A stretch of DNA of 35,228 nt from a virus. Made by a program: the position numbers and the translations under genes. The notes beneath the pieces were generated by a model, which did no database searches, was not told where the DNA came from, and was given only the letters and a program-made list of their open reading frames with translations. Shown here piece by piece: positions 3,533 through 19,658 of this stretch (positions are counted from its first letter, which is position 1; each line of letters starts with the position of its first letter). The DNA lies in the IMG/VR virus record IMGVR_UViG_3300031772_005065, positions 1-35,228 of that record, one strand, 5' to 3'.

Positions 3533-3598
3533 ATGAAAATAATTTCATTATCACAAGACAATGTTGTACTAATAAACAATACAGAACCATGCTTATAA
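3533..3598 (+). CDS. Possible 21-aa leader ORF overlapping the methyltransferase start
   Basis: A 21-aa frame begins one base after the preceding stop codon and ends inside the methyltransferase start region (overlap 3589-3598). It has no recognisable sequence. It may be a coupling ORF that brings ribosomes to the ATG at 3589, or a chance frame; the tight spacing is the only support. Confidence 0.2.
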   Translation: MKIISLSQDNVVLINNTEPCL

Positions 3599-4386: not shown

Positions 4387-4418
4387 AATAAATTTACAAA
4401 TCTAAACTTCAAAGAATA

Positions 4419-5039
4419 ATGAATCTTAGTTTTCACCAAAAGGAATATTCTCAAATGATGTTTGATGCCTCAAAAGTACCAAGCGGGAGTGATATTTTAA
4501 AGTTTTATAAAGAACTTGGGAAGATAAGAGAGTTTAGGTTAAATCCAGGAGAGGGACTAGACAACAGCAAGGTGATGCAGTATGTTCTTTGTTTGTACGA
4601 CAAGAACTCACCATATCGGAGGAAATATCCCGATGTTCTTAAAAGAAAAATAGAGGTGGCACATGATTGCGAGTTTCAAATAGAGACAGGTGGTAATTTT
4701 GAACCATTGGTTGAGGATTTCTTAAAAGGTAAAAACCGTATTGTGAACCAAAAAGCAGTTGCATACGTAAGACTGCACCGCAACTTTAAGTTTGCATACA
4801 TGGTAACTATTGAGGAATCCTATTATACCCTGATGCTTGAAATACTTGGGGGGGAGACAAAAAAAATTGCTACTGCAAAAGAGATACAAGGGGAACTGGA
4901 AGAAACACTTTTGGAGATACTCAATCAGGACAATAACCCCTATCTAAGAGATGAAATACTTCGATACATGGAAGATGAAAGACTACAATTAAGGCCGGAA
5001 GACATTGCAAAAAAGGCACAGGAAGGAGTAAAAAAATGA
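4419..5039 (+). CDS. Conserved-looking phage protein of unknown function (206 aa)
   Basis: This 206-aa protein is not assigned. It is charged and likely mostly helical, with no membrane segment. The C-terminal third (GGETKKIATAKEIQGELEET onward) looks like a coiled helical region. Its segment SPYRRKYPDVLKRKIEVAHD suggests a nucleic-acid or protein-interaction surface, but this is only a guess. It is the last gene before the sugar cluster: its stop overlaps the next ATG as ATGA, so the cluster is probably read on the same message. The gene might belong with packaging functions interrupted by the cargo; nothing proves this. Confidence 0.6.
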   Translation: MNLSFHQKEYSQMMFDASKVPSGSDILKFYKELGKIREFRLNPGEGLDNSKVMQYVLCLYDKNSPYRRKYPDVLKRKIEVAHDCEFQIETGGNFEPLVEDFLKGKNRIVNQKAVAYVRLHRNFKFAYMVTIEESYYTLMLEILGGETKKIATAKEIQGELEETLLEILNQDNNPYLRDEILRYMEDERLQLRPEDIAKKAQEGVKK

Positions 5040-5665
5040 TAGTAAAAGGATTTGCACATTGGTACTTAATCAATGACTGGTACACGATAGTAACAGATCA
5101 GATGCGCATACTTCTCACATCAGGACTATATGACGAGTGTGAGCAAATAAGCATCGGGTGTATTGGCTTTCCGGAAGACAAGGCATTGCTTGAAAAACTG
5201 ATTATAAACCAATACCCAAAACTGATTATCCGGTATTATTCTCAGGAACCACAGGACTATGAGTTTAAGACTCTAAAGTTAATTGAGGATGATAATTCTG
5301 AGTATGTAGGATTTTATTTTCACACCAAGGCTATTACAAGACCATTTGAACCTATCATAAATCACTGGAGGGCGTGGTTAAATGAGAGCATACTTAATCG
5401 GTGGGAGGAGCATCGTAATCGGGTAGAATCTGCTTATGATGTCTCATCAGTAAACGAGTTGAAGTCACCGGACCATTTCTCTGGCAACTTCTGGTGGTTT
5501 AATCGGGAATACATCAACAGACTGCCAAAGATTGACACCCTTGATAAGAAAAACCGATTTGCTGCAGAACAATGGATATGTATGTATAAGCACAGACACA
5601 CATATGCCAAAGAATTTTTAGAACCAGGGAGAGACACATTCATAATGCAATATAACCATGTATAA
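5036..5665 (+). CDS. Glycosyltransferase-like protein, first gene of the sugar cluster
   Basis: The 209-aa product has the pattern of small glycosyltransferase-like proteins found in surface-polysaccharide clusters: a strand with an E-D-D triad near residue 85, YFHTKAITRP around 95-104, and HFSGNFWWFNREYINRLP around 148-166. The HTK and SGNFWW motifs recur in that family. I cannot name the family number. There is no signal peptide or transmembrane helix, so it would act on the cytoplasmic side. AAGGAG lies upstream and its ATG overlaps the previous stop (ATGA), so it starts the overlapping gene run. Confidence 0.6.
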   Translation: MIVKGFAHWYLINDWYTIVTDQMRILLTSGLYDECEQISIGCIGFPEDKALLEKLIINQYPKLIIRYYSQEPQDYEFKTLKLIEDDNSEYVGFYFHTKAITRPFEPIINHWRAWLNESILNRWEEHRNRVESAYDVSSVNELKSPDHFSGNFWWFNREYINRLPKIDTLDKKNRFAAEQWICMYKHRHTYAKEFLEPGRDTFIMQYNHV

Positions 5666-6356
5666 GGACAAAACAGTTTTAATAACAGGTGCGAGTAGAG
5701 GAGTCGGTAAGTTTCTTACTGAGTATTTTTTAAAAAATGATGCTAAGGTAATTGGGGTAAGCAGATCAGGAGGAGAAGAAGGAATAAATCATAGGCATTA
5801 TGCTATTGATTTATCAGTGCCATCTGGGATTGAAAAAGTATTTACTCAAATAAAAGGACTTACAGATGAGATTGATATTGTAATTAACAATGCAGCCGTT
5901 CTCACATCTCAGTATTCAATGAAGATGTTATGGCAGTGTGCAGAAGGCATGGTAAAAACAAATTTACTTGCCCCATTTCTTATTGCCAGAGAATCCGCAA
6001 AATTAATGAAGAATGGAGGACAGATAATAAACATTAGTTCTATGGCAGTAGCACTTGAACCGATGGGAGATTCTATGTACGCAGCGTGCAAGGCAGGACT
6101 TAATAAGATGTCAAACATCATGGCAAAGGAGTTTGCAGGATTCGGGATCACGGTGAACACCCTTGCTATATCTGCTATTGACACGGATATGCTCAGGCAA
6201 TTAAACAAAGAGAAAGTGGACAAGGTGGTTGCCGGACTGCCGATACCGAGATATGCCACCATAGATGATATTACCAATGTCATTGACTTCTTTTGCTCAC
6301 CAAAATCAAATTATGTCACATCCCAAACTATCTACCTTGGAGGGGTACACGCATGA
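5658..6356 (+). CDS. SDR oxidoreductase, 3-oxoacyl-ACP reductase (FabG)-like
   Basis: A classical short-chain dehydrogenase of 232 aa. TGASRGVG (10-17) is the NADP-binding glycine motif, NNAA (77-80) the structural motif, and the catalytic tetrad is N102, S128, Y141 and K145 in YAACK. Length and motifs fit FabG-type 3-oxoacyl-ACP reductases, although SDRs also reduce sugars. The neighbours (ketosynthase, MaoC hydratase, ACP) favour reduction of a 3-keto group on an ACP-bound acyl chain. It overlaps the preceding gene by 8 bases and the FabH-like gene by the ATGA junction. Confidence 0.85.
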   Translation: MYKDKTVLITGASRGVGKFLTEYFLKNDAKVIGVSRSGGEEGINHRHYAIDLSVPSGIEKVFTQIKGLTDEIDIVINNAAVLTSQYSMKMLWQCAEGMVKTNLLAPFLIARESAKLMKNGGQIINISSMAVALEPMGDSMYAACKAGLNKMSNIMAKEFAGFGITVNTLAISAIDTDMLRQLNKEKVDKVVAGLPIPRYATIDDITNVIDFFCSPKSNYVTSQTIYLGGVHA

Positions 6357-7297
6357 CAGGGATAGGCATAATAAAGACAGCAAGTTATCTTCCGTGCAAC
6401 ATACAGACAAATGAGGATGTTTGTCGGTACGTGAAGGAATTGACACCTGAATGGATTATCGAAAAGACAGGCATCAAACAAAGGCATCTTGCTAATGGAG
6501 AAAAACCCTCAGTAATGGCAGGTGTTATCGCAAACAGACTTGCTTATGGAGACAAAGGGCTTAATCCGGAGATAGGTCTGATAATAGTATCATCATTCAG
6601 TCAGGATTATATGCTACCTCCTATGTCAGCAAGAGTACATTGGTCAATGGGGGCACATAAGAACTGCCAGATAATTGATATAAATACCAACTGCACCGGA
6701 CTTATAACCGGAACAACCATCGCAGTAGAGAGAATGAGGGCAAATCCAAAGATTAAGTATGCGATTGTCATTGGAGTAGAGGTACTTTCAAGATGGGTAG
6801 ATAAAACCGATAAGTTCACAGCACCATTTTTCAGTGATGGTGCAAGTGGAGTACTATTAGGACGTGTAAAGGAAGGATATGGACACCTAAACTCATTCTT
6901 TTGCACTGATTCATCAGCATACGAGGACGTGAGATTGAAAAGAGGTGGTTTCATTGAGCATAATGGCAAGGAGACGTGGACTCAGGCGATAACCAACGTG
7001 CCATACGTGATGAAAGAGTTGTGTCATTCATCAAAAATATCCATAAAAGATGTGGACTTCTTCATATTTCATCAGGCAAACAAGGTTATGATTGACTATA
7101 TCATGGACAAACACCGGATACCACATGAAAAAACCTATACCAATGTGGAGGAGATAGGAAATACAGGTGCAGCGAGCATAGGGATAGCCTTGGACGAGGC
7201 ATATCGTAAGGGATTAATAAAGTCGGGCGATCTATTGATGCTCGCAGGTGTAGGTGCAGGATTTAACTTTGGAGCAAACCTATGGAAAATTCAGTAA
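6353..7297 (+). CDS. 3-oxoacyl-ACP synthase III (FabH)-like ketosynthase
   Basis: The 314-aa protein has the complete KAS III triad: C114 in NTNCTGL, H240 in FHQAN and N270 in IGNTGAAS. The N-terminal half starts with MTGIGIIKTASYLP, as in FabH. KAS III enzymes condense a short acyl starter with malonyl-ACP, and some relatives act as acyl transfer enzymes in natural-product pathways. The start at 6353 is chosen because it is the ATGA overlap with the reductase; a frame starting at 6293 would overlap it too far. Neighbouring acyl-chain genes support chain extension on the ACP encoded at 9516. No malonyl transferase is present, so malonyl-ACP would come from the host. Confidence 0.9.
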   Translation: MTGIGIIKTASYLPCNIQTNEDVCRYVKELTPEWIIEKTGIKQRHLANGEKPSVMAGVIANRLAYGDKGLNPEIGLIIVSSFSQDYMLPPMSARVHWSMGAHKNCQIIDINTNCTGLITGTTIAVERMRANPKIKYAIVIGVEVLSRWVDKTDKFTAPFFSDGASGVLLGRVKEGYGHLNSFFCTDSSAYEDVRLKRGGFIEHNGKETWTQAITNVPYVMKELCHSSKISIKDVDFFIFHQANKVMIDYIMDKHRIPHEKTYTNVEEIGNTGAASIGIALDEAYRKGLIKSGDLLMLAGVGAGFNFGANLWKIQ

Positions 7298-8160
7298 CAT
7301 ACATAAAACGCTTATTGCACGCAATAGGCAAACGAGATAAGTTACATGCCAAAACATTAAGAAGGAGCATGGAGTCTATGCGGGGTCGGGAATATTGGAG
7401 ATTAGCAGAGATCATTCAGACCTATTTCATTAACAACGGGGTCAAAGTAAAACAACTATCTGAAGATTATCTGCACATGGTGAATGACATGAGAATAGAA
7501 ATGAAGTATTTTGAGCAGACAGGGGAATATTCATGTAAAAATGAAAAAGAAGCGTATGGCAAGGTGTATTCAAATCCAGGAGTGATGGGTTATTACATGA
7601 ACGCATTGCTTATATCACAAATACTCTGGACGCATCACTTTGAAATTTTAAAGAGATTTACCGAACAAGTAGTAAAATATGGAGGCAAAGGGAATGGTGA
7701 AAGTATTCTCGACATAGGGTCTGGACATGGACTATTCTCAAAGATTATGAAGGATAACATGCCTAATATTCGATTCATTGATGTGGTTGATATAAGTGAA
7801 AGGTCAATAAGCATGGTAAAGAGTTTCTTAGGCACTGATAAGGTTAATTATTTCACCTGTGACATAATGGACTTTGACAGGGTAGGTGGCTATGACATCA
7901 TAATCCTTGGAGAAATACTTGAACACTTGGATAACCCATTGAGAGTATTAAAACATGCGGTATCTCTGTTAGACAGAAATGGAGTCATCTGGATTACTAT
8001 TCCGATAAACGCTCCTGCAATAGATCATGTTTATTTATTTGATAGTCCCGAGATGATTGATGATCTGGTTGAGAGTGCCGGATTAAATTACCTCATTGAA
8101 AATTACGAATTTGTAGATGGACAAACGTCTATAATGAGTGCATTTTGCATAAAGAAATGA
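7282..8160 (+). CDS. Class I SAM-dependent methyltransferase
   Basis: The 292-aa protein has AdoMet motif I as ILDIGSGHG (142-150), the acidic end of strand two at VVDIS near 168, and LGEILEHLDNPLRVL about 60 residues after motif I, a hallmark of Methyltransf_23/11-type enzymes. Residues 1-130 form an extra helical N-terminal domain, possibly a substrate-binding or partner domain. The gene lies between the ketosynthase and the hydratase, so the methyl acceptor might be the growing acyl chain or the sugar. It overlaps its upstream neighbour by 16 bases and its downstream neighbour by four. Confidence 0.85.
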   Translation: MENSVTYIKRLLHAIGKRDKLHAKTLRRSMESMRGREYWRLAEIIQTYFINNGVKVKQLSEDYLHMVNDMRIEMKYFEQTGEYSCKNEKEAYGKVYSNPGVMGYYMNALLISQILWTHHFEILKRFTEQVVKYGGKGNGESILDIGSGHGLFSKIMKDNMPNIRFIDVVDISERSISMVKSFLGTDKVNYFTCDIMDFDRVGGYDIIILGEILEHLDNPLRVLKHAVSLLDRNGVIWITIPINAPAIDHVYLFDSPEMIDDLVESAGLNYLIENYEFVDGQTSIMSAFCIKK

Positions 8161-8540
8161 AGTACGAAGAAATAGAAATAGGACAAAGTGTAAGATATAC
8201 AAAATGGATAATTCCATATATGTTACAGAAATTTATTACTATTTCAGGAGACAATAATTCAGTGCATACAAAAGGGGAGAAGCCGATAGTTCATGGGATG
8301 CTCATTTGCTCATTTATTTCAACCTTAATTGGGAAACAGTTACCAGGAGACGGGGCATTATGGATGTCATTTGATGTTAAGTTCATTCAGCCAATATATG
8401 TAGCGGAAAAAATAGTCATCATAGGTCGGGTACACTCAAAGAATGACACCAATAGGAGTATTAAATTACTCATAGATGTTTTCAATGAAAATGATGACCT
8501 TTGCATAGCAAGTACAGCAGTTGTAAAAGTACCAGAGTAA
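8157..8540 (+). CDS. MaoC-like hydratase/dehydratase, hot-dog fold
   Basis: A 127-aa single hot-dog protein with the R-hydratase motif: GDNNSVH (D32, N34 and H37) followed by PIVHGML (43-49). In this family the Asp and His activate water for reversible (R)-3-hydroxyacyl dehydration, and 127 aa fits PhaJ/MaoC single domains. The ATG at 8157 gives ATGA overlap with the methyltransferase gene. With FabG-like and FabH-like genes beside it, a dehydration step on an ACP-linked acyl chain is the natural reading. No enoyl reductase gene is seen, so the chain might stay unsaturated or hydroxylated. Confidence 0.8.
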   Translation: MKYEEIEIGQSVRYTKWIIPYMLQKFITISGDNNSVHTKGEKPIVHGMLICSFISTLIGKQLPGDGALWMSFDVKFIQPIYVAEKIVIIGRVHSKNDTNRSIKLLIDVFNENDDLCIASTAVVKVPE

Positions 8541-9523
8541 TGAAAAAAGCAATAATCTTTGATTGTGATAACACCTTATGGCAAGGGATAGTTGGGGAAG
8601 AGAGCATAATCCATGATGCGGGTATGCAACAGGATATTGTATTCTTAGCCAATCACGGGGTTATCATCGGGTTGTGCAGTAAAAATAATGAAGAAGATGT
8701 AATCAAGGCATTAGAGAATCAAATACTCAGGGAAGAACATATCTCTGTAAAAAGGATTAATTGGAAAGACAAAGTATCAAATCTGAAAGAGATTGCACAG
8801 GAACTCAACATTGGAATGGATGCCATAATGTTTGTTGATGATTCTCTTTTTGAAAGGAATCTTATAAGGGAATACCTTCCCGAAGTATTGACTATTATGC
8901 CACAAGACCTGATGAAAAATGTACTTGAATGTTTTGATCTTACTGGTACTTTCTCCAAGACCCAACAATACAAAGAAAACTACTTGCGTGCCAAAGCAGA
9001 AACACAGTTTACGGACATAGAAGAATATCTTGCATCACTGAAGATGGTTCTTTCCATTAAGATTAATGAACAATCCCATATCCCACGTATCACAGAACTC
9101 ACGCAAAAGACAAATCAGTTTAACCTTACCACAAACAGACACGATAAAGAAGATATTGCAATATTTATGGAGACAGGAAGAGTGTATTCGTTATCGGTAA
9201 AAGATAGGTTTGGTGACAATGGGATTGTGGGAGTTTGCATTGTTGTATTGAATAAGATAGAGACTTTTCTACTAAGTTGCAGGGTACTCGGTCGTGGAAT
9301 AGAATATGCGTTTTTTGATTACGTTATTGAAATGGAATACAATTATGGAAAGATTGTTCTATTGGCTGAATATAAACCTACCGCTAAAAATAAACAGACA
9401 AAAAACTTTTATGGGAATGTTGGATTTGAATGTTTTAACATTACAAAAGAAAATGTTATGTTTTCTATGGGATGGTTAGAGAATTACACACCAAAAGCAA
9501 AAAAATATTTTCGTTATGAATAG
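8540..9523 (+). CDS. FkbH-like HAD-IIIC protein with C-terminal acyltransferase-like domain
   Basis: The 327-aa protein starts with MKKAIIFDCDNTLWQGIVGE, the FkbH-type HAD motif DxDNTLWxGxxGE (D8 and D10), and has VDDSLFER near 99-106, matching the family's (I/V)DD-ER motif. The C-terminal half (about 160-327, with FNLTTNRH and VYSLSVKDRFGDNGIVG) resembles the GNAT-like domain usually fused in FkbH proteins. Known relatives capture 1,3-bisphosphoglycerate as glyceryl, or lactyl equivalents, and load them onto an ACP. The next gene encodes an ACP, which fits exactly. Its start overlaps the previous stop as TAATG. Confidence 0.85.
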   Translation: MKKAIIFDCDNTLWQGIVGEESIIHDAGMQQDIVFLANHGVIIGLCSKNNEEDVIKALENQILREEHISVKRINWKDKVSNLKEIAQELNIGMDAIMFVDDSLFERNLIREYLPEVLTIMPQDLMKNVLECFDLTGTFSKTQQYKENYLRAKAETQFTDIEEYLASLKMVLSIKINEQSHIPRITELTQKTNQFNLTTNRHDKEDIAIFMETGRVYSLSVKDRFGDNGIVGVCIVVLNKIETFLLSCRVLGRGIEYAFFDYVIEMEYNYGKIVLLAEYKPTAKNKQTKNFYGNVGFECFNITKENVMFSMGWLENYTPKAKKYFRYE

Positions 9524-9749
9524 CAAGATACAAGAGATAATGGCTCAGGCTTTTGAAGTGCCGGTGAAAGATATAACAGTCAATTCAACCCAAGACAATA
9601 TAGATAATTGGGATTCTATTCATCATATTAAAATGATTGTCTTTTTGGAAAGGGCATTTGATATTACTATCCCTGATGAGGACGTAGGGAAGATGGTTGG
9701 TTATAAACTCATAGAACTGGTTGTTAATAAGTGCATCAATGAAACATAA
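9516..9749 (+). CDS. Acyl carrier protein
   Basis: A 77-aa protein with the acyl carrier fold. DNIDNWDSIHHIKMI contains the phosphopantetheine-accepting Ser34 in W-D-S-I, a variant of D-S-L; D-S-I is found in other carrier proteins dedicated to natural-product pathways. The charge is less extreme than in host AcpP. It overlaps the FkbH-like gene by 8 bases and the GNAT gene by 11, so stoichiometric production with them is likely. No phosphopantetheinyl transferase is in the window, so activation would rely on the host enzyme. Confidence 0.9.
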   Translation: MNSKIQEIMAQAFEVPVKDITVNSTQDNIDNWDSIHHIKMIVFLERAFDITIPDEDVGKMVGYKLIELVVNKCINET

Positions 9750-10320
9750 GTTTGCAACAATGGTTGAGGGTGAATTTATTGACCTGCAAAAAGTAACGGT
9801 TGATGATGCAGAATTTATCTATGAGTTAAGGACAAGCAAGGGAGCGCAGTATCTTAATCAGCCACCAAACTACTCTATAAGCAGTCAGCGAGAATGGATT
9901 GAAAAGAGAACCGCAGACGAAATCAATTATATTATCTATTCCAAAGACAGGGAGAGAGTAGGCATGGTGTCTATCTATGACTGTGATTGGAGTAATGGAG
10001 TGTCAAATGTAGGCAGATTACTATTAAAAGAACAATTCATCCATGCGTCAACTCCTTTTGGATTAGAGGCATTGCTTATAACATACGACTATGTCTTTTA
10101 CACGATGGGATTCAGAAAGATTGCAGGGACAATAAACAGTCGCAACGAGAAAGTAGTAAGTCTGCAAAAATATCTTGGGATGACAGAAGAGGGATATTTC
10201 AGAGGGCATGTGTTACTTGATGGAGAACCACAGGACTTGTATTGGTTAGCATTATTCAAAGAAGATTTTCCGAGGTATAGCGCAAAGATATATTCACTTC
10301 TTAATAAGTTTCGTATATGA
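9739..10320 (+). CDS. GNAT-family N-acyltransferase (RimJ/RimL-like)
   Basis: The 193-aa protein begins with IDLQKVTVDDAEFIYELRTS and later has RLLLKEQFIHASTPFGLEAL and FRKIAGTINSRNEKVVSLQK, the layout of RimJ/RimL-type GNAT enzymes. Enzymes of this type (for example PseH) N-acylate amino sugars on nucleotide carriers. Placement between an ACP gene and an amino-sugar pathway suggests the donor may be acyl-ACP and the acceptor a sugar amine; this is inferred from order only. The ATG at 9739 overlaps the ACP gene, which is preferred to the earlier TTG at 9721. Confidence 0.75.
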   Translation: MKHKFATMVEGEFIDLQKVTVDDAEFIYELRTSKGAQYLNQPPNYSISSQREWIEKRTADEINYIIYSKDRERVGMVSIYDCDWSNGVSNVGRLLLKEQFIHASTPFGLEALLITYDYVFYTMGFRKIAGTINSRNEKVVSLQKYLGMTEEGYFRGHVLLDGEPQDLYWLALFKEDFPRYSAKIYSLLNKFRI

Positions 10321-10733
10321 ACGCCACGGTAATTGATTGTGAAATTATACCTTTGAGAAAAATAAAATCTTCAAGCGGTAATCTTGTTGTTATACAGGGG
10401 AGGCAAGACATCCCTTTTGATATAAAAAGAATATACTACATCAATGACGTACCGGAAAAAGGAGACAGGGGAAGCCATGCACACAAAAACCTCACACAGT
10501 TTATAGTTGCCACGGAAGGAGTGTTTACGCTTGTATTAGATGATGGGAAGTCAAAACGTAATATCTTATTAAGCAAAGAGGGAGACTGTTGGGGGGTACT
10601 TATAAAGCCTGGGATATGGCGAATATTGGAAGGGTTTTCAAAAGGAGCAGTATGTTTGGTACTCGCATCGGCAGATTATGATGAAAATGATTATATACGT
10701 AATTATGACGAGTTTTTAAAATTTAAGTTATGA
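10317..10733 (+). CDS. fdtA: FdtA/WxcM-like cupin, 3,4-ketoisomerase of nucleotide deoxysugars
   Basis: A 138-aa cupin with RGSHAHKNLTQF, whose H54 and H56 match the essential histidine pair of FdtA, and the conserved C-terminal YDENDYIRNYDEFLKF. FdtA and relatives convert dTDP-4-keto-6-deoxyglucose into the 3-keto isomer, the step before amination to 3-amino-3,6-dideoxyhexoses. Length and both motifs fit the family fully. ATGA overlaps couple it on both sides to the GNAT and dehydratase genes. The substrate carrier (dTDP or UDP) is uncertain because the dehydratase next to it looks UDP-GlcNAc-type. Confidence 0.85.
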   Translation: MNATVIDCEIIPLRKIKSSSGNLVVIQGRQDIPFDIKRIYYINDVPEKGDRGSHAHKNLTQFIVATEGVFTLVLDDGKSKRNILLSKEGDCWGVLIKPGIWRILEGFSKGAVCLVLASADYDENDYIRNYDEFLKFKL

Positions 10734-11533
10734 AGTATATTTACAGGGCACTTATAACTGGTGGTACTGGCACAATAGGACGTGAACTGGCGAACCAAAT
10801 GATAGGTTGGAATATATCTATATTTTCACGCAATGAGAAGGATCAGTTTTTTATGAAACAACAGTATCCCTCATTTCGTTATGTTATAGGAGATGTAAGG
10901 GATTCATCTGCGGTATTAAAAGCATGTGAGGGGAAGGACTATGTGTTTCACACGGCTTCGCTTAAAAGAGTAGAAGTTTGTGAGGAGGAGACAGAAGAGG
11001 CAGTTAAAACTAATTTAATAGGGTCACTTAATATCATCAACGCTTGTCGGCAGTATGGGTGTCAGATGATTAATATGTCAACAGACAAGGCTATTAATCC
11101 GAGTAACGTATATGGCAGAACAAAGTCGTTAGTAGAGGCGATGATTACTCAGTCCAAGTATGTCAATATACGAAGTTGTAATGTCTTGTGGTCGTCAGGG
11201 AGCGTGTTACCGATATGGCAGTTACAACTCGCAACATCTAACGAGATAAACCTTACATCTAAAGAGATGACAAGGTTCTTTATTCATCCCACAGAACTTG
11301 CGTTATTTATATTAAGTCATAAGGATGATTCAGGCACATTTACCGTTCCTATGAAGGCGTTTAGGATACACGACATTGCAGAGAGGTTTGTATCATTATA
11401 TGGGAATAAAGATTCTAAGATTAACATAACAGGACTGCGCTCAGGGGAGAGGTTACATGAATATATGGATGATGTTATATCTTCTGATAAAAATGTTTGT
11501 AGTGATTTAGAATATATATTTAAAAGCAAATGA
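10730..11533 (+). CDS. Extended SDR, UDP-GlcNAc 4,6-dehydratase (PseB/CapD-like), short
   Basis: The 267-aa protein has GGTGTIG (11-17), MSTDKAINPSNVYGRTK with S117-K120 and the YxxxK pair Y128 and K132, plus EMTRFF near 182-187, all typical of Polysacc_synt_2 dehydratases such as PseB/FlaA1. HTASLKRVEVCE (74-85) also matches. The family usually has about 330 residues, so this is a compact version. The activity would be 4,6-dehydration of a UDP-N-acetylhexosamine, making a 4-keto-6-deoxy sugar. It is tied to its neighbours by ATGA overlaps. Confidence 0.8.
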   Translation: MKYIYRALITGGTGTIGRELANQMIGWNISIFSRNEKDQFFMKQQYPSFRYVIGDVRDSSAVLKACEGKDYVFHTASLKRVEVCEEETEEAVKTNLIGSLNIINACRQYGCQMINMSTDKAINPSNVYGRTKSLVEAMITQSKYVNIRSCNVLWSSGSVLPIWQLQLATSNEINLTSKEMTRFFIHPTELALFILSHKDDSGTFTVPMKAFRIHDIAERFVSLYGNKDSKINITGLRSGERLHEYMDDVISSDKNVCSDLEYIFKSK

Positions 11534-12159
11534 CACCTTATTCGGTTACAGAAGAGTTTGAAAGAGTTTTATCTGACTACACGGGTGCGCCCTATGCAGT
11601 AGCATTGGATAATTGTAGTAATGCGTTATTCTTAGCATTAACGTATGACAATATTAAGGGGAAAACCATTGAAATCCCGTGCAGGACATACATGAGCGTT
11701 CCTTGTGAAATACGTCATGCCGGAGGTTTTGTGAAGTTTTTACCCCCCGATGGAGATACGTTAAAGGGAGCATACCAGTTAAAGGGATCAAATGTTATTG
11801 ATTCAGCATTAAGGCTTACAGCCAATATGTATATTCCTGGGACGTACACTTGTTGTTCTTTCACAGGGAAATATAAACCGTTAAAATTGGGCAAAGGAGG
11901 GTGTATTTTAACTGATAACAAAGAAGCGTTCTTATGGTTTAAAAGGGCACGTTTTTCAGGAAGGAAAGAAACTGAATATTCAGAAGATGATTTCTCAATG
12001 ATGGGATGGAATTTTTATATGCACCCCATGGTTGCTGAATTGGGATTATTGTTAATGGGACAGTTTTATAATTCCGATAAGAGTAAGAAAGATATGCCTG
12101 ATGTTGAGATGGAATATCCCGATTTATCACAATATAAAATATATACCGATGTATTATAG
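11530..12159 (+). CDS. Short DegT/DnrJ/EryC1-type sugar aminotransferase
   Basis: The product starts like a DegT-family PLP enzyme (residues 5-35: VTEEFERVLSDYTGAPYAVAL then DNCSNALFLAL) and contains CSFTGKYKPLKLGKGGCIL near 116-134, which aligns with SFHATKxxTTGEGG including the PLP lysine. At 209 aa it is little over half of the usual 370 or more residues and lacks most of the C-terminal small domain. The frame ends cleanly in an 11-base overlap with the next gene, so it is not an obvious pseudogene. It may be a compact active form or a partner-dependent one. Expected role: amination of the keto sugar made upstream. Confidence 0.7.
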   Translation: MTPYSVTEEFERVLSDYTGAPYAVALDNCSNALFLALTYDNIKGKTIEIPCRTYMSVPCEIRHAGGFVKFLPPDGDTLKGAYQLKGSNVIDSALRLTANMYIPGTYTCCSFTGKYKPLKLGKGGCILTDNKEAFLWFKRARFSGRKETEYSEDDFSMMGWNFYMHPMVAELGLLLMGQFYNSDKSKKDMPDVEMEYPDLSQYKIYTDVL

Positions 12160-12895
12160 CATGATTAGCGCACAGGTAAGGGATGATAACCGCTATCTTG
12201 ATGAATGGGTTGAATATAATTTTGCGATAGGTTTTGAACATATTGTGATAGTGGATCATAGAAGTGAAGAACCTGTAATTGCTAAGTGGGGAGATAAAGT
12301 AACGGTTATCAGAGAAAATAAAACAGACGATAATCCCTACGATAATGTGAACGCCAATCTGAAGGCATTTAAGAGCAAATGGTTTGCCGTCATTGCAGTA
12401 GATCAGTTTATAGTCCTGTTAAGAGATAAAAGCATTAATGATCTATTGGCAGACTACGAACAATATGGTGGACTGTCTATCAATTGGTCTGTGTATGGGA
12501 GTTCCGGTCACATAAAGAGACCTGAAGGATTGGTAAAAGATAATTACTTATGGAGGATGCCTTACGACATAAAAGATACATGCCAAGACCTTGTTCAGAC
12601 AATCGCAAACACCGAACATTGTGTTCGTTACCATAATGATCATACTTGTATTACCACAAGACCCATTGTTAATGAAGATTATGTCAATACAAACAATTCT
12701 GCGATAAGTTTTTCTTCAAGAACACGGTGTAAAGTAAATCATTATATGACACGATCACATGAAGACTGGGAGTTTAAGACAGAACGTGCAAGGAAGGCAA
12801 GACCCACGCATCAGTACGATGAGAATGGGTTTCATCTCATAGATGATTTTTGTACCGTTTATGACGATGTGTTAAAAGATTTTGGCAAAAAATAA
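12149..12895 (+). CDS. Glycosyltransferase-like protein (GT92/GT2-type), altered DxD
   Basis: The 248-aa product has an N-terminus of the GT92-like pattern: RDDNRYLDEWVEYNFAIGFE then HIVIVDHRS. Where relatives carry a DxDEF metal site, this protein reads AVDQF (83-87), so the first aspartate and the glutamate are changed. It could be a divergent or metal-independent enzyme, or catalytically weak. The C-terminal part has several His and Cys residues but no clear zinc site. The start at 12149 is chosen over a frame beginning at 12101 because it leaves the usual short overlap. Confidence 0.6.
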   Translation: MYYSMISAQVRDDNRYLDEWVEYNFAIGFEHIVIVDHRSEEPVIAKWGDKVTVIRENKTDDNPYDNVNANLKAFKSKWFAVIAVDQFIVLLRDKSINDLLADYEQYGGLSINWSVYGSSGHIKRPEGLVKDNYLWRMPYDIKDTCQDLVQTIANTEHCVRYHNDHTCITTRPIVNEDYVNTNNSAISFSSRTRCKVNHYMTRSHEDWEFKTERARKARPTHQYDENGFHLIDDFCTVYDDVLKDFGKK

Positions 12896-12899
12896 AGTT

Positions 12900-13445
12900 A
12901 TGATACACGAAAGAGGATATTGGTTGGACAAAGAAGAGATAGCAACTCACATGCACGATGAGGCATTATGCGATGCCATTATCAAGACATTTAGTGATGT
13001 AAGAACGATTATTGACATTGGGTGTGGCGATGGATATTATACAAAGAGACTTACAGAACACGGGTTTGAATGTATAGGATTTGACGGGTCTCCGTTAACC
13101 CCCGAAATAACAAACGGGATATGCGAGGTAAGAGATTTTTCCGAACAGGTAAACATGGGCGAGTTTGATCTTGTACTTAGTCTGGAGGTAGGAGAACATA
13201 TTCCTGATAAGTATGAACAGGTTTTTATAGATAATCTTATATGCGCATCCAAGGGATATATATGCTTATCCTGGGGTGTGGAAGGGCAACAGGGAGTAGG
13301 TCATGTTAATTGCAGAAATAATGATTATGTGATTAAGGAATTATTTGAAAGAGGATTCATTTACAGTGCCGACAAGTCTCAGTATCTAAGGGATAATTCG
13401 ACATTGCCATGGTTTAAAAACACGGTATTGATATTCTATAAATAA
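12900..13445 (+). CDS. Class I SAM-dependent methyltransferase, small
   Basis: The 181-aa protein has motif I DIGCGDGYYTKRL (39-51), an acidic residue at the end of strand two (FDGSPL) and FDLVLSLEVGEHIPD near 93-107, as in Methyltransf_23-type enzymes. It consists of little more than the Rossmann core. The ATG at 12900 is favoured over a TTG at 12882 that would overlap the previous gene. A sugar or peptide O-methylation is plausible from context; the substrate is not known. Confidence 0.75.
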   Translation: MIHERGYWLDKEEIATHMHDEALCDAIIKTFSDVRTIIDIGCGDGYYTKRLTEHGFECIGFDGSPLTPEITNGICEVRDFSEQVNMGEFDLVLSLEVGEHIPDKYEQVFIDNLICASKGYICLSWGVEGQQGVGHVNCRNNDYVIKELFERGFIYSADKSQYLRDNSTLPWFKNTVLIFYK

Positions 13446-13939
13446 TGCAACAGGTATCGAACATAGAAGATATTTTCAGGGAGTATTTTAAAAATGCGAT
13501 AGTGCCGGATAGGATAATTGAGCTAGGGACGGCTACCGGGGTGTTTGCCCATCTTATCTATAAGTTAAGAAAGGAGATAAATAATAACTTTGACTTTATA
13601 ACCATTGACAGACTCTCGTTAATTGATGACTTGCCTTCAAATATGATCTTTTGTAAGATGAACATTTATAAAAATATCAAATTCATCGCAAATCTTATCA
13701 AGCCACGGACGTTATTCCTTTGTGACGGAGGAAATAAGATATCAGAGGTAAGATTATTTACTCCTTTTCTCAAAGAGGATTGTGTTATCATGGCACACGA
13801 CTATGCTAAAAACAAAAGCATTGGCAATAAGTATTGGTGGTGTTGTGAAATAGAATGGAGTGACATATCGGACTTAGAAATGTTGTTTTATTTTCAGGAA
13901 CTAATGGAAACAGGAGGATGGGTGTCCTTAAAGAAATAA
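13445..13939 (+). CDS. CmcI-like (cephalosporin hydroxylase family) SAM-fold protein
   Basis: The 164-aa product shows ELGTATGVFAHLIYKL (26-41), a TIDR strand end near 53-56, LFLCDGGNKISEVRLFTPFL about 90-109 and CVIMAHDYA. The D-G-G-N-K and M-A-H-D-Y motifs are those of the cephalosporin-hydroxylase-like methyltransferase family, common in glycan clusters. It is shorter than the usual 200-plus residues. It shares one base with the previous stop (TAATG). It may methylate a sugar hydroxyl. Confidence 0.6.
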   Translation: MQQVSNIEDIFREYFKNAIVPDRIIELGTATGVFAHLIYKLRKEINNNFDFITIDRLSLIDDLPSNMIFCKMNIYKNIKFIANLIKPRTLFLCDGGNKISEVRLFTPFLKEDCVIMAHDYAKNKSIGNKYWWCCEIEWSDISDLEMLFYFQELMETGGWVSLKK

Positions 13940-13941
13940 CT

Positions 13942-14589
13942 ATGATAACAGTAGTAATAACCTCATGCGGGAGACTTGATCTTCTTAAAAGGACAACAGA
14001 ATCGTTCCAGAGGTTTAACACCTATCCGATCACTGAATATATTATCGTGGATGATTCCGGGGACGCAGGAATACATAATGAGATAAGGCGACTATATCCC
14101 GGATGGACACTTATTCTTGCGCCACAAAACAGAGGGCAGGTGCAGTGTATTGATATCGCCTACTCCAAGGTTAAAACACCTTACATATTCCATTGTGAGG
14201 ATGATTGGGAGTTTACTAAGGGAGGTTTTATAGAACCATCATTAAAGATTCTGGAACAAAATAAAAGAATTTTATTAGTACGACTTTTATGCCATGACTT
14301 GCCTATTGAACCAGAGGTTTTTAAAGCAGGGGACATAGAATATCGATTGGTTGGACATGATATCAATAACTGGTGGCATGGATTTACATGGAATCCAAGT
14401 TTACGCAGACTATCGGAATATGACTTAGTAAAACCATATATTCAATATGCTAAAAATAGAGATTCTGCAATAACCGAATGTCATATAGGAATGGAACTTT
14501 ATGATAGATATGGATTTAAAGTGGCTATTTTAAATGACGAGTATTGTTTCCATACAGGAGACAAAGATCAAAAAAGACCAACATTATGA
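13942..14589 (+). CDS. Family 2-type glycosyltransferase
   Basis: A 215-aa GT-A protein with a classical GT2 start (MITVVITSCGRLDLLKRTTE), the nucleotide-binding IIVDDSG (34-40) and HCEDDWEF (84-91) as the DxD-equivalent metal motif. The C-terminal half has NNWWHGFTWNPSLRR, likely part of the acceptor site. It is only about two thirds of a full GT2 length, typical for the small enzymes of this cluster. The ATG at 13942 follows the previous stop by two bases; an earlier ATG at 13918 would lie inside that gene. Confidence 0.85.
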   Translation: MITVVITSCGRLDLLKRTTESFQRFNTYPITEYIIVDDSGDAGIHNEIRRLYPGWTLILAPQNRGQVQCIDIAYSKVKTPYIFHCEDDWEFTKGGFIEPSLKILEQNKRILLVRLLCHDLPIEPEVFKAGDIEYRLVGHDINNWWHGFTWNPSLRRLSEYDLVKPYIQYAKNRDSAITECHIGMELYDRYGFKVAILNDEYCFHTGDKDQKRPTL

Positions 14590-15371
14590 AACAAATAATA
14601 TGGGTGTATGCTTTGTGTTACAATGAAAGTCATTTCATTGGCAATTTTCTTACAGCCTATAAGGATGCTGACAGGATTATCATTTACGACAATCACTCCA
14701 CAGATAACTCGGTGGAATTGCTCATGCGTGACCCCCGTGTAGAGATAAGATATTTTGATTCTAATTCAGAGTTACGTGATGATATTCACATCCAGATCAA
14801 GGACAACTGTTGGAAGGAGGCGAGAGGCAAAGCAGATTGGGTTATTGTGGTAGATTTCGATGAGGTATTTGCAAGGGTGACGGTTGTGAATGGTGAGGTG
14901 GTATTTGATCTTGACCTGTCAGAACCATACAATAATGGGTTTAATATTATTAAACCTTATGGTTATAATATGATTTCACTTGATGCGCCACTTTATACTA
15001 ACGATCATCCCTTCAAACACTGTCCACGGGGAGCATACCATCCCCCGGCAGAGAAACCATGTTGTTTCAGACCAGATCAGATCGGAGAAATGAACTATAC
15101 TGTTGGGTGTCATACCGCAGACCCCTTAGACATAAAAGGGAGCAGAGATGGAGTGAAGATACTTTACGACAAGGACTATAAACATCTCCATTTCAGGTTT
15201 TGGAATTATGATCTTTATATGAAGAAAGCAGAAATTGGGAGGAACAGATTATCTTCTGTTAATAAAGATCATGGTTGGGGATGGCAGTATCTCGAAACAA
15301 ACGAACAGCAAGGTAGCATGTATCTTGCAGGCATGAAACTTTCTAAACATCTTTTAGATATAGAAAAATGA
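14586..15371 (+). CDS. Glycosyltransferase, tandem paralogue 1 (Glyco_tranf_2_4-type)
   Basis: First of three adjacent homologous genes (261 aa). It has IIWVYALCYNESHFIGNFL, then DNHSTDNS (35-42), RDDIHIQIKDNCWKE (64-78) and ADWVIVVDFDE with D90 and D92 as the DxD. The family is the one annotated Glyco_tranf_2_4 or GT92-like. It differs from the other two in having about 25 more residues, with an insertion after the DxD. ATGA overlaps join it to both neighbours. Confidence 0.85.
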   Translation: MKQIIWVYALCYNESHFIGNFLTAYKDADRIIIYDNHSTDNSVELLMRDPRVEIRYFDSNSELRDDIHIQIKDNCWKEARGKADWVIVVDFDEVFARVTVVNGEVVFDLDLSEPYNNGFNIIKPYGYNMISLDAPLYTNDHPFKHCPRGAYHPPAEKPCCFRPDQIGEMNYTVGCHTADPLDIKGSRDGVKILYDKDYKHLHFRFWNYDLYMKKAEIGRNRLSSVNKDHGWGWQYLETNEQQGSMYLAGMKLSKHLLDIEK

Positions 15372-16087
15372 ATATAGAAATTTACGCATTGTGCCATCAG
15401 GAAGCACCCATGATTCCGTATTTCATGCGTCACTATAACCAATACGGTAAGATATTTCTTTTTGAAAGTGGTTCTACTGACGGGTCGGCTGAGTTGGCAC
15501 AATCACTTGGGGCAACAATAGTGCCATTTGACACAGGGAATCAAATCAGGGATGACTTATACCTGGAGATGAAAAATAATTGTTGGAAACAATCGAAAGC
15601 AGACTGGGTTATTATCTGTGACATGGATGAATTTGTGTATCATCCAAATTTCAAAGAATATCTCAAGACCATAGAAGGGACGATCATTCAGCCACGTCAT
15701 TATGAAATGTTTTCTGATGTGTTTCCTACAACACAAGGGCAGATTTATGAAGAGGTGACAATGGGGGCAACGTCCGACAAAGAGAGAAACACAAGTGCTA
15801 AATTATGTTTGTTTAAGCCACAGGAGATAACAGAGATGAACTATGAACCAGGTGCGCACTTAGCACACCCCACGGGGAACGTAATAATTAACGACAAGAA
15901 TGAAGTGATCTCTATGCACATGCGTCATCTTAATATTGACTATATTATGAAACGCAATGCCTATTTTGTTTCAAGATTAAGTGCCATAAATAATGAAAAA
16001 GGATGGGGGTCTCATTATAGGGTTTCACGTGAGAATGTTCAGAATTGGTATGATATTCATAAACCCGATTTAGTAAAAGTAATATGA
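15368..16087 (+). CDS. Glycosyltransferase, tandem paralogue 2
   Basis: A 239-aa protein closely matching the next gene: IEIYALCHQEAPMIPYFMRH, ESGSTDGSAEL, RDDLYLEMKNNCWKQSKADW, DMDEFVYH with D85 and D87, and the later block VFPTTQGQIYEEVTMG. The first and third paralogues share each block. It probably transfers a sugar with different donor or acceptor specificity. No membrane anchor. Confidence 0.85.
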   Translation: MNIEIYALCHQEAPMIPYFMRHYNQYGKIFLFESGSTDGSAELAQSLGATIVPFDTGNQIRDDLYLEMKNNCWKQSKADWVIICDMDEFVYHPNFKEYLKTIEGTIIQPRHYEMFSDVFPTTQGQIYEEVTMGATSDKERNTSAKLCLFKPQEITEMNYEPGAHLAHPTGNVIINDKNEVISMHMRHLNIDYIMKRNAYFVSRLSAINNEKGWGSHYRVSRENVQNWYDIHKPDLVKVI

Positions 16088-16785
16088 AAATAGAAGTATA
16101 TGCAGTTTGTTACAATGAGGAAAGGTTACTTCCTTATTTTCTGAGACACTATTCTCAGTTTGCGGATGTCTGTGTTTATGATAATTATTCAACAGATAAA
16201 TCTGCACAAATCATCCAAAGCGCAGGAGCAAAAGTTATAGAGTTTGATTCCGATGGTGAGTTCAGGGAAGATATACTCGTGGACATAAGAAACAATTGTT
16301 GGAAGGACTCAAAAGCAGATTGGGTCATTATAGTTGATATTGATGAGTTTGTTTATCACAAAAATCTTCCGCAGGCACTTGAAAACATATCAGGGACAGT
16401 TATCATGCCAAGGATGTTTAATATGTATTCTGATGTTTTCCCATTAACAGAAGGGCAGATTTATGAGGAAGTAGTAATGGGAACCGACACGACAAGTAAG
16501 ATGAATTTGTTTCGACCTTTAGAAATAAAGGCTATGAATTATGATGCCGGATGTCACAACGCCAAGCCGGAAGGTAATTTTGTATTAAATATAAATTCAG
16601 ACATAATCGCATTACATTTCAGATACCTTTCTCCTGAATATGTTATATGGAGAAACTACACAACAAATTTAAGACAGAGCAGTGTGAATAGAAAAAATGG
16701 CTGGAACTGGCATTTTGCAGAGAAAGCAGAATCGGTATTAACTAATTTTCGGGATACAAAACCCAGATTAATAAAGGTTGTATGA
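16084..16785 (+). CDS. Glycosyltransferase, tandem paralogue 3
   Basis: A 233-aa protein with the same block order as paralogue 2: IEVYAVCYNEERLLPYFLRH, DNYSTDKSAQ, REDILVDIRNNCWKDSKADW, DIDEFVYH with D85 and D87, and VFPLTEGQIYEEVVMG. The pair shares most residues in these blocks, so the two genes come from a duplication. It is coupled by ATGA junctions at both ends. Confidence 0.85.
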   Translation: MKIEVYAVCYNEERLLPYFLRHYSQFADVCVYDNYSTDKSAQIIQSAGAKVIEFDSDGEFREDILVDIRNNCWKDSKADWVIIVDIDEFVYHKNLPQALENISGTVIMPRMFNMYSDVFPLTEGQIYEEVVMGTDTTSKMNLFRPLEIKAMNYDAGCHNAKPEGNFVLNINSDIIALHFRYLSPEYVIWRNYTTNLRQSSVNRKNGWNWHFAEKAESVLTNFRDTKPRLIKVV

Positions 16786-17387
16786 TAACACTAAAAATAC
16801 TTCATGTGATAGTGGTTGCATATCGAAGGGCAATACCACTAAGAATAATGATTGACAGTTTTCTGTTACAAACAAATCCCCGATGGACACTCCATGTCAT
16901 CCACGATGGACCTATGCCACAAGATGTAAAGGACGTAGTTGACTTGCCTCAGTACAAAGATTATCGAATATCGTTTTCAGAGACAGCAGTAGTAAACGGA
17001 CACTGGGGGCATCCTAACAGGAAATTTATGTTAGGACAGATACCTCTTAATCATCGTGATTTTGTATTAATAACAAATGATGATAATTATTACGTTCCAA
17101 AATTTGTGGAATATTTTTTAGAAGAGGGTAACAAAGAGGATGTTGGGTTTGTTTATTGTAATACTGTACATTCTTATTATAAATATGATATATTAACCAC
17201 AGTGGTCAAAGAGAATCAGATTGACATGGGTTCTTTTATGGTAAAACTTGATGTTGCAAGACATATTGGATTTAACCATATCCACTTATCCGCAGATGGT
17301 TTGTATGCAGAAGAATGTGCAGATTATTGTCGTTTGCGAAGACTGAAAGTGGTTCATATACCAAAACCGATTTTTATTCACAATTGA
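16782..17387 (+). CDS. Glycosyltransferase, last gene of the sugar cluster
   Basis: A 201-aa GT-A-like protein: LHVIVVAYRRAIPLRIMIDS at the start, HVIHDGP for the first acidic strand, and LITNDDNYYVPKF (96-108) as the DxD region. GHWGHPNRKFML (73-84) is a further motif seen in related small transferases of polysaccharide clusters. The likely donor is a nucleotide sugar. Its stop lies seven bases before the terminase ATG, with no terminator between, so the packaging genes may be read from the same message. Confidence 0.75.
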   Translation: MITLKILHVIVVAYRRAIPLRIMIDSFLLQTNPRWTLHVIHDGPMPQDVKDVVDLPQYKDYRISFSETAVVNGHWGHPNRKFMLGQIPLNHRDFVLITNDDNYYVPKFVEYFLEEGNKEDVGFVYCNTVHSYYKYDILTTVVKENQIDMGSFMVKLDVARHIGFNHIHLSADGLYAEECADYCRLRRLKVVHIPKPIFIHN

Positions 17388-17393
17388 TGAAAC

Positions 17394-19634
17394 ATGAACC
17401 ATTTAGCCCTATTAAAACGCTATTATAAAGAAGTTGATCCGCAGATACTATCACAGTATCAGGAGGCAGATAAAAGCGTATGGGTAAACACCGATGACAA
17501 AGATTTAATCCCGATAGAGATAGAACTACCGGAGCCACCGGAGCCACACCTGATAGATAACTTTGGATTACCTGCAGCAGATCAGATGTGGCATCCTCCA
17601 AAACTACCAAGGAGGCTTAAAGAGTTACAGAGTAAGTATGAGACACTTGATGAGATATGGGATGAGTTGGAAGATCATAAAGACATCTATTCTGATGAGA
17701 TAAAGTTTATAGAACTGCAATGGGAACGGAGACTTAACGGGTACTGGTTTTATAACAATGGCATACCTACATTCATTGACGGATGGAATTATTTTTATTG
17801 TGGATGGTGGCATATTGACGTTGGATTACCAAAATACAGGGACAGAGACCGGAGATTCTTTCTGTTTGCACGTAAAATCTATAATGAAAAAAAGTCTCCA
17901 AAATGTAATGTCAAAGGGTTTGCCATAAAAAACAACAAAGGAGAGTATGAATGGATAGAGTTTAATGATAAGTTATTTTATGGCTTTAACTATCCCAAAC
18001 ATCGTAGGGAAGGTGCATCATATAAGGGAGGTTGCATTAATTATGAGATCATAAGCAGGACAATCAATGCACGTGGGGGCATACAATCAATGACGGACGA
18101 TAAGGCTAAGATCGTATTTTTAAGACATATCGTAAGTCCTTGGAAGAAACTGCCATTTTTCTTTAAACCTAACTATGAGGGGTCAACGTCTCCAAAGACA
18201 GAGTTATCCTTTTCCCCCCCGGCCAAAAGACTTTCCTCAAAAGGAGCATTGTCAATGTCTGAACTTGGACTTGAATCCGGGATTGACTTTGGAGTAGCAG
18301 ATGAGACAGCTTATGAAGGTACAAAACTATATTTTCACCATGACGATGAGGTAGGTCGTCTTAAAAAAGGGGTGGACTGTTGGGCACGGCATGGGGTGGT
18401 CAAAGAGTGTCTTGTGGATGGAGCGACAATAATTGGGTTTACAATAAAGACATCAACGGTTGGGGAGATGGAGAAAGGAGGTGGAAAGGCATTTAAACAC
18501 CAGTGCGAGATGAGTAATTATTATGAGAGAGATCTGAATGGACAAACATATTCCGGACTTGCCACTCTTTTTATTCCGGCCTATGATGGGTTAAAAGGGT
18601 TTATTGATGAGTATGGGATAAGTATTGTTGGCACACCAAATAAAAAACAGGCAGTTTATATCGGGAAGACCATAGGAGCAAAGGAATTTCTCTTAAACAA
18701 ACGCAAAGGTAAGATAGGCGATCAGGATGCGTTATCGGAGGAGATAAGATTATATCCTATCAGGTTTGCAGAGTGTTTTCGTACCTCAACGAAATCATCA
18801 GGGTTTAATATGAACAAACTGGAATCGTATATCGATGAACTGTCATTTACTAAACAGCCGATAACAATAGGTAATCTCAGTTGGGAAAACAATGTAAGAG
18901 ACAGTAAGGTGATATTCACATCAAACCCGCAAGGGAAATTCAAGATAAGTCATTTATTAAACAACCATGAGGCAAATAAGAAGTTTTGGAGTAATGACGA
19001 ACAGTTATGGAAACCAGGTAATTCACATTGGGGAGTAGCGGGAGGAGACCCCTTTAAATTTAACATCACAAAAAGCAACCGGAAGTCAAAAGGAGGAGGA
19101 GCGGTTCTAAAGAAGGCCCAGATAAAAGACGGTGATTTTTCTATGAAACGTAAGTTTGCCTGCACCTACGCTAATCGGACGTATGACAAAAACATCTATG
19201 GAGAAGATATGATTATGATGTGTGTCTATTTTGGTGTTCCAATGTTTCCCGAAATTGACTTTCCTTTTATATGGGATTATTTTACAGAGAGAGGATATGA
19301 AGGATATTTACTTTACAAAGTTGATCCAAGGACATTTAAGATAAGCAACACCCCCGGTGGTACGGCAAACAGGGTTAAGCAGGACATCTTTACAGAATAC
19401 ATGACATGGATTGAGAATGAGGCTGACGAAGAAAATCATATTGAGGTATTGGAGGAGTGCAGGGATATTGACGGTCCGGAAGACATGACCAATTATGACT
19501 TATTCACAGCCGGAGGATATGCACTACTTGGTACACGTGGACTGTATGATGAGATAGCAGAATTGGATGAGAAGGAATATACCCTTGACAGTTATTTCAA
19601 AAAAAGAACGTATAGTTCCATGAGAAAGTATTAA
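17394..19634 (+). CDS. Large terminase subunit
   Basis: A 746-aa terminase ATPase-nuclease that drives DNA packaging into the procapsid. Visible ATPase features are a Walker A-like segment RREGASYKGG (204-213), a Walker B-like LYFHHDDEVG (312-321) and a coupling motif around KTSTVGEMEKGGG (352-364). The nuclease half holds VAGGDPFKFN around 548-557, with D552 as a candidate metal ligand, and later acidic clusters near 619 and 690. The Walker A is divergent, as in terminases of Bacteroidota phages. The size is larger than most terminases (450-600 aa) and fits crAss-like relatives. It begins the virion gene block. Confidence 0.85.
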   Translation: MNHLALLKRYYKEVDPQILSQYQEADKSVWVNTDDKDLIPIEIELPEPPEPHLIDNFGLPAADQMWHPPKLPRRLKELQSKYETLDEIWDELEDHKDIYSDEIKFIELQWERRLNGYWFYNNGIPTFIDGWNYFYCGWWHIDVGLPKYRDRDRRFFLFARKIYNEKKSPKCNVKGFAIKNNKGEYEWIEFNDKLFYGFNYPKHRREGASYKGGCINYEIISRTINARGGIQSMTDDKAKIVFLRHIVSPWKKLPFFFKPNYEGSTSPKTELSFSPPAKRLSSKGALSMSELGLESGIDFGVADETAYEGTKLYFHHDDEVGRLKKGVDCWARHGVVKECLVDGATIIGFTIKTSTVGEMEKGGGKAFKHQCEMSNYYERDLNGQTYSGLATLFIPAYDGLKGFIDEYGISIVGTPNKKQAVYIGKTIGAKEFLLNKRKGKIGDQDALSEEIRLYPIRFAECFRTSTKSSGFNMNKLESYIDELSFTKQPITIGNLSWENNVRDSKVIFTSNPQGKFKISHLLNNHEANKKFWSNDEQLWKPGNSHWGVAGGDPFKFNITKSNRKSKGGGAVLKKAQIKDGDFSMKRKFACTYANRTYDKNIYGEDMIMMCVYFGVPMFPEIDFPFIWDYFTERGYEGYLLYKVDPRTFKISNTPGGTANRVKQDIFTEYMTWIENEADEENHIEVLEECRDIDGPEDMTNYDLFTAGGYALLGTRGLYDEIAELDEKEYTLDSYFKKRTYSSMRKY

Positions 19635-19658
19635 CTTTATCAAAAATTTTCCGACACA

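Follow-up and report, generated by a model that had tools for sequence, protein, structure and literature searches.

A variable slot beside the terminase gene of a phage, filled here by a predicted cassette for an acylated deoxyamino-sugar glycan

What is a run of acyl-chain, deoxyamino-sugar and glycosyltransferase (GT) genes doing among the packaging genes of a phage? The question is raised by positions 5036-17387 of an IMG/VR virus record (IMGVR_UViG_3300031772_005065), which was analysed as a stretch of 35,228 bp, in its entirety referred to as the window. Based on family assignments, structural models and comparisons to related loci, we propose that this run is one filling of a variable slot immediately before the large terminase gene (TerL), and that it makes an N-acylated deoxyamino-sugar glycan for a virion protein, a whole account whose probability we would put at roughly 0.6.

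The run consists of 19 open reading frames (ORFs), all on the plus strand, unbroken and with almost zero spacing. They are given here together with the two genes that bound them.

4419-5039, plus strand: conserved gene at the left slot boundary, unproven candidate for the small terminase; no Pfam match, one weak PHROG match of unknown function
5036-5665, plus strand: GT1, first slot gene, candidate initiating glycosyltransferase; GT-A-like fold in the model, no Pfam match
5658-6356, plus strand: FabG-like 3-oxoacyl-acyl carrier protein (ACP) reductase of the SDR family; TGASRGVG and YxxxK motifs, 75% identical to the copy in the related locus L004
6353-7297, plus strand: FabH/KASIII-like synthase; match 1e-28, active-site Cys, His and Asn conserved, 88% identical to the L004 copy
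7282-8160, plus strand: S-adenosylmethionine (SAM) methyltransferase MT1; Pfam/NCBIfam
8157-8540, plus strand: MaoC-type (R)-specific hydratase/dehydratase; GDNNSVH hydratase motif kept
8540-9523, plus strand: FkbH domain protein, HAD-IIIC, putative glyceryl-ACP former; TIGR01686 at 237.6 bits, cut-off 146.65
9516-9749, plus strand: ACP; weak match, Asp-Ser motif with the phosphopantetheine Ser in NWDSIHHI
9739-10320, plus strand: GNAT, PseH-like N-acyltransferase (weak); score well short of the NCBIfam cut-off
10317-10733, plus strand: FdtA-type nucleotide-sugar 3,4-ketoisomerase; match 6e-47
10730-11533, plus strand: PseB/FnlA-like nucleotide-sugar 4,6-dehydratase, short (267 aa); Polysacc_synt_2 at 7e-60, TDK and YGxTK motifs
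11530-12159, plus strand: mini-DegT sugar aminotransferase, 209 aa; Pfam DegT at 1e-14, 54.6 bits vs 19.8, partial-length matches
12161-12895, plus strand: GT2, glycosyltransferase family 2-type; PF13704
12900-13445, plus strand: SAM methyltransferase MT2; Pfam/NCBIfam
13445-13939, plus strand: MT3, methyltransferase-like; no Pfam match, called from sequence and neighbours, 60% identical copy in the L006 slot
13942-14589, plus strand: GT3, glycosyltransferase family 2; Pfam
14586-15371, plus strand: GT4, GT2_4/GT92-like; Pfam
15368-16087, plus strand: GT5, GT2_4/GT92-like; Pfam
16084-16785, plus strand: GT6, GT2_4/GT92-like; Pfam
16782-17387, plus strand: GT7, last slot gene; Pfam, family shared by 9 of the 18 filled slots
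17394-19634, plus strand: TerL, right slot boundary

Ten junctions read ATGA (5036, 6353, 8157, 10317, 10730, 11530, 14586, 15368, 16084 and 16782), as the initial annotation had stated, and none occurs elsewhere among the called genes of the window. The overlapping run that it described is borne out, with an actual count of 19 genes in place of 17; its own list of five acyl, four sugar, three methyltransferase and seven GT genes also sums to 19. The acyl enzymes (FabG-, FabH-, MaoC- and FkbH-like proteins and ACP) and the set of 4,6-dehydratase, FdtA, DegT and GNAT that it named are found by Pfam/NCBIfam, with weak matches for ACP and GNAT, as are two of its three methyltransferases, the third (13445) having no Pfam match. 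Six of its seven GTs are recognized by sequence and the seventh (5036) by a modelled GT-A-like fold, with a predicted local distance difference test score (pLDDT) of 82.7, Foldseek E-values of 7e-6 to 2e-4 to nucleotidyl- and glycosyltransferases and template modelling (TM) scores by query of about 0.4-0.56. A phage-borne cluster of acylated-deoxyamino-sugar and GT genes beside packaging genes is supported, as just one filling of a slot with variable contents.

The slot is found in tailed phages of one clade, for which Flavobacterium elemo and Cellulophaga phages are distant relatives. Between the window and cultured Flavobacterium (Elemovirus), Maribacter and related phages, TerL identity is 27-31%, and none of the three such cultured phages viewed has a cassette-like annotation before TerL; nearly all of 61 TerL loci in IMG/VR (loci from this collection are cited by L numbers) are closer. 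In 35 loci, the window included, the full interval from the conserved gene (4419-5039) to TerL is readable. It is empty in 17, where the homologue of the conserved gene abuts TerL directly, and filled in 18 with differing sugar-gene sets that span 3.1 to 12.35 kb, the upper value being that of the window. The filled loci include duplicate records of the same virus (L004 = L024, L014 = L050, over the compared stretch) and others that look alike, leaving about 13 independent ones, and the TerL tree was built without those duplicates. In this tree every filled locus falls into a single clade of 18 rows (support 100/100), with five empty loci also inside, all deeper branches are empty, and four changes between filled and empty suffice, compared to ten with shuffled labels. 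The simplest reading of the slot history would be one acquisition followed by a few losses. The plus strand carries every one of the 164 genes in the filled slots, which is weak evidence, since most neighbouring genes do likewise. At L019 (686-1973), GT7- and GT1-like genes are located upstream of the g00 homologue while the slot before TerL is empty; this cassette may have moved.

Phages that are closely related at both edges can differ almost completely in between. The left-flank proteins of L005 and L052 are 95.3% identical and their TerL proteins 94.8% (over 466 aa), but among the ten genes of each cassette GT1 alone is clearly common (69%), the remaining matches being remote (<30%), and L012 and L033, with TerL 86.9% identical, have zero slot genes in common by BLAST. 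Other slots contain UDP-GlcNAc 2-epimerase, an amine-oxidase-fold protein, RmlD-type reductases, C-methyltransferases, radical SAM/B12 proteins, FkbM methyltransferases, GT10/11/25-type proteins and hexapeptide acyltransferases; the radical SAM/B12-binding protein is located at L033:6452-7555, within a glycan slot. Genes resembling GIY-YIG or HNH homing endonucleases, located in or at the edge of the slot (L052:1296-2201, L058:4706-5461, L031:6511-7143), could drive cassette exchange. The GT1 family occurs in 15 of the 18 filled slots, as might be expected if the first step and its acceptor stayed the same throughout.

The acyl module is found again in a single lineage, L004/L063, as FabG, FabH, MT1, MaoC, FkbH and ACP in identical order, with identities to the window of 88% for FabH, 77% for TerL, 47% for MT1 and 43% for MaoC. 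The slot of that lineage has no counterpart of GNAT, FdtA or the dehydratase, and instead continues with DegT and then a hexapeptide-type gene, and the shared module is a mosaic. A recurrence of the gene order in phages, raised by the initial annotation, can accordingly be confirmed for the acyl module but not for the whole set, the contents of which change between close relatives. Genes shared between slots display ratios of nonsynonymous to synonymous polymorphism (pN/pS) of 0.14-0.59, with synonymous sites largely saturated, and are therefore maintained under purifying selection. The window FkbH has the DxD HAD motif and the conserved FDCDNT sequence expected of its family. Scans of IMG/VR with FabH and FkbH detected no lineage other than L004/L063; in the phage collection, FabH-like matches do not exceed 35% identity and come mostly from unannotated records, and FkbH reaches 37% in one unannotated 75-kb faecal record. 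Plasmid matches to FkbH are 31-37% identical, with other gene contexts in the three viewed, and the FkbH scan of bacterial genomes returned just two matches (35-39%, Acidobacteriota), patterns too unspecific to trace a bacterial source.

The sugar module centres on an unusually small aminotransferase. For FdtA and GNAT, scans of IMG/VR detected no relatives, such single-protein scans reaching close relatives only. Mini-DegT has relatives at no fewer than 572 IMG/VR loci, 80 of which were read for lengths and neighbours. The model of mini-DegT (pLDDT 94.2, predicted TM score 0.91) aligns with the large domain of GDP-perosamine synthase, PseC and ArnB, with TM scores of about 0.65 by query and 0.31-0.40 by target, and the top structural matches are all 359-442 aa. 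K116 and D91, which from an alignment to perosamine synthase and knowledge of the family we take to be the catalytic lysine and the cofactor aspartate, are invariant across 38 phage sequences. The large pyridoxal phosphate domain of the DegT/DnrJ/EryC1/StrS family, with these two residues, is thus present, whereas the C-terminal small domain that brings the family to about 360-400 aa is missing from the 209-aa protein. We consider mini-DegT a truncated phage branch of the DegT superfamily and a predicted sugar aminotransferase. Its relatives are mostly 205-224 aa long, and 75 contigs of the 80-locus set have a PglD/hexapeptide-type gene no more than a few genes away, usually as the very next one (Pfam PglD_N in the neighbour at L110). 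Against plasmids, mini-DegT gave no match. At L112:1267-3867, a group-1 glycosyltransferase, an FkbM methyltransferase and mini-DegT, as the C-terminal part, are fused into one type of protein of 860-930 aa, and L114, L126, L139 and L148 have similar fusions. In the phage contig L072 (14066-14932), a NeuB-family nonulosonic acid synthase gene adjoins a second mini-DegT and a hexapeptide gene, possibly a pathway for a legionaminic/pseudaminic-type acid.

The closest parallel in gene roles is bacterial. In the viosamine island of P. syringae, vioA, vioM, vioT, vioS (KASIII), vioB, vioR (FabG-type) and acp yield N-(3-hydroxy-1-oxobutyl)-2-O-methylviosamine for flagellin (PMC3927599). This island and the flagellin glycosylation island of P. 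aeruginosa PAK combine a DegT-type aminotransferase, methyltransferase, GT, KASIII, FabG-type reductase, ACP and N-acyltransferase, and place an N-acylated, methylated deoxyamino sugar on a filament protein (PMC3927599); in the phage, the aminotransferase and N-acyltransferase are candidates. The KASIII, ketoreductase and ACP that supply the acyl chain in viosamine-type clusters are all present in the window. The viosamine island differs in being bacterial and flagellin-linked, in lacking MaoC, FkbH and FdtA among its seven named genes, and in using a full-length VioA (372 aa) on a dTDP-sugar, while the phage has the 209-aa DegT and its own UDP-GlcNAc-type dehydratase; the likeness is one of gene roles. 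Because the phage set has at least a candidate for each role of the viosamine island, with MaoC, FkbH and FdtA in addition, its product is probably a 3- or 4-amino-6-deoxy sugar that is N-acylated with a hydroxyacyl or glyceryl group.

We propose that the cassette operates as follows. FkbH and/or FabH, FabG and MaoC would assemble a short thioester on ACP, either (hydroxy)acyl or glyceryl, and the 4,6-dehydratase, FdtA and mini-DegT would convert a host nucleotide sugar to a 3- or 4-amino-6-deoxy sugar. GNAT would then transfer the acyl group to the amine, with methyltransferases trimming the sugar. GT1 may place the first sugar on a structural protein of the phage, after which the remaining GTs would lengthen the chain, still in the cytoplasm and while late genes are expressed. 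Such a glycan would differ among relatives like a serotype, and most likely shields or re-addresses the virion.

The surroundings of the run are those of a phage. Downstream lie TerL, the portal gene and an SU10-type major capsid protein gene at 23275, and since intergenic gaps from 4387 to 21950 never exceed 32 bp, co-expression of the slot and the packaging genes is likely. Shortly before the slot, 3589-4386 holds a DNA-methyltransferase-like gene (partial match to phrog_67) that is poorly matched or absent in most relatives. A Bacteroidota-like promoter match (TTTG...TATATTTG) is located at 1110-1138, within the largest early intergenic gap; the motif scan gave two matches overall, the number expected by chance.

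Which molecule receives the glycan is the point on which alternatives diverge. Our best guess, held at somewhat better than even odds, is a cytoplasmic virion protein made late, favoured because the slot has no convincing membrane segment and no GtrA and its genes are tightly set between packaging genes. Specifically, no convincing membrane segment was found in the slot proteins of the 18 filled and the partial slots, a hydropathy threshold being passed by two of 222 slot-region proteins (FkbH and a truncated end ORF), and GtrA was not found in 13 related records, where absence from metagenome records is weak evidence. Between the two roles suggested by the initial annotation, virion decoration and alteration of the host surface, it is the late position and the lack of membrane genes from which we infer the former.

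A glycan on the host surface, i.e. on lipopolysaccharide (LPS), capsule or S-layer, that blocks adsorption of competing phages via host lipid carrier, flippase and ligase is the next candidate, serious but clearly less probable. Single parts of the cassette are typical of bacterial polysaccharide operons, and surface roles have been proposed for a glycosyltransferase of Gratiaviridae (PMC8008677) and for Bacteroidetes phages whose LPS-type genes include DegT (PMC9723584). However, the shortage of membrane segments and of GtrA argues against such a route, and genes inside the packaging operon would come late for superinfection exclusion. Hypermodification of phage DNA by the sugars, as in T4-type glycosylation, is improbable: DNA-modifying phage GTs are known and a DNA-methyltransferase-like gene lies at 3589, but no gene of the thymidylate synthase/dCMP hydroxymethylase family was found in the window or 12 related records, although the records are perhaps incomplete and there are base chemistries of other kinds; moreover, a multi-sugar cassette of 3-12 kb, variable in content and with an ACP-based acyl route, is disproportionate for base modification. 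Even less probable is a diffusible, GT-glycosylated tetronate- or polyketide-like small molecule made by FkbH, ACP, FabH and MaoC. Tetronate formation in polyether antibiotics uses FkbH together with a FabH-like synthase and ACP. A cluster of this type is the topic of PMC7489565. The slot, however, is devoid of a polyketide synthase or exporter, and the other filled-slot lineages keep sugar genes and GTs, mostly without the acyl module. Finally, a chimeric assembly that joins phage to bacterial DNA, for which the bacterial-type families of the acyl and sugar genes might speak and whose sign, for the initial annotation, would be a coverage break at 5036 or 17390, is hardly credible, as both edges recur with matching overlaps in independent contigs (the 4-bp overlap before the first slot gene in L003 and L006, the 6-bp gap before TerL in L003), two records from another lineage agree exactly over 22,244 bp that contain the acyl module with phage genes on either side, and GC content is even, with no jump at either edge of the run.

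Several points nevertheless weigh against a virion glycan made by this cassette. The acceptor is one that we infer, late expression is argued from gene order alone, and the exact sugar, nucleotide and acyl chain are not readable from the sequence. FdtA next to a PseB-like dehydratase is an unusual pairing, the ACP and GNAT matches are weak, and activity is assumed for a mini-DegT without C-terminal domain. A host flippase and ligase could serve, permitting a host-surface target. The window covers 35 kb of a phage genome, and its relatives are metagenome contigs that are possibly incomplete.

Phage sugar clusters and virion glycosylation are already known. The cultured Flavobacterium phage vB_FspM_immuto (160 kb) carries GTs, a methyltransferase and a 214-aa short DegT that is 62% identical to that of the window, followed by an annotated pilin-glycosylation protein, but in another position (no terminase annotated within the 30 kb viewed) and with no ACP/FabH/FkbH module annotated there. 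The bS21-encoding Bacteroidetes phages, which are large and aquatic, have polysaccharide/LPS-type genes and DegT; the available portion of their description mentions no acyl-ACP module and reads these genes as host-surface remodelling (PMC9723584). Mycobacteriophage particles are reported to bear glycans on capsid and tail tube (Freeman et al. 2023, via PMC12619734). For the window, position and gene content point to such decoration. To our knowledge, mycobacteriophages, which are not Bacteroidota-type phages, achieve this with GTs only, lacking a dedicated deoxyamino-sugar and acyl pathway. The gtr serotype-conversion operons of temperate phages are another case of phage-borne glycan diversification, and use membrane proteins, GtrA and a membrane glucosyltransferase; neither the flippase nor such a glucosyltransferase was found in the slot or its relatives. 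The complete set, which was unfamiliar to the initial annotation as a unit in a phage, was indeed not found elsewhere in the phage collections searched, whereas sugar clusters as such are not unique, as immuto and the Bacteroidetes phages illustrate. The open-access literature yielded no description of a phage with an ACP-based acyl module alongside deoxyamino-sugar genes or FdtA, or of a comparable swap slot.

The slot may be an exchangeable serotype locus beside the terminase, a reading that we place slightly short of even odds. Virions would then bear different, complete and sometimes acylated sugar chains made by miniaturized phage-type enzymes such as the 209-aa DegT, and antigenic or receptor-binding diversification would occur by cassette swap, not by tail-fibre change alone. 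The large phage family of miniature sugar aminotransferases is perhaps also useful as a source of enzymes. Phage glycosyltransferases are often met singly, with targets that are still to be established. In this clade, complete sugar pathways, of which one brings its own acyl-carrier chemistry, vary between close relatives at a fixed spot of the packaging region, offering near-isogenic natural pairs for tests of glycan function.

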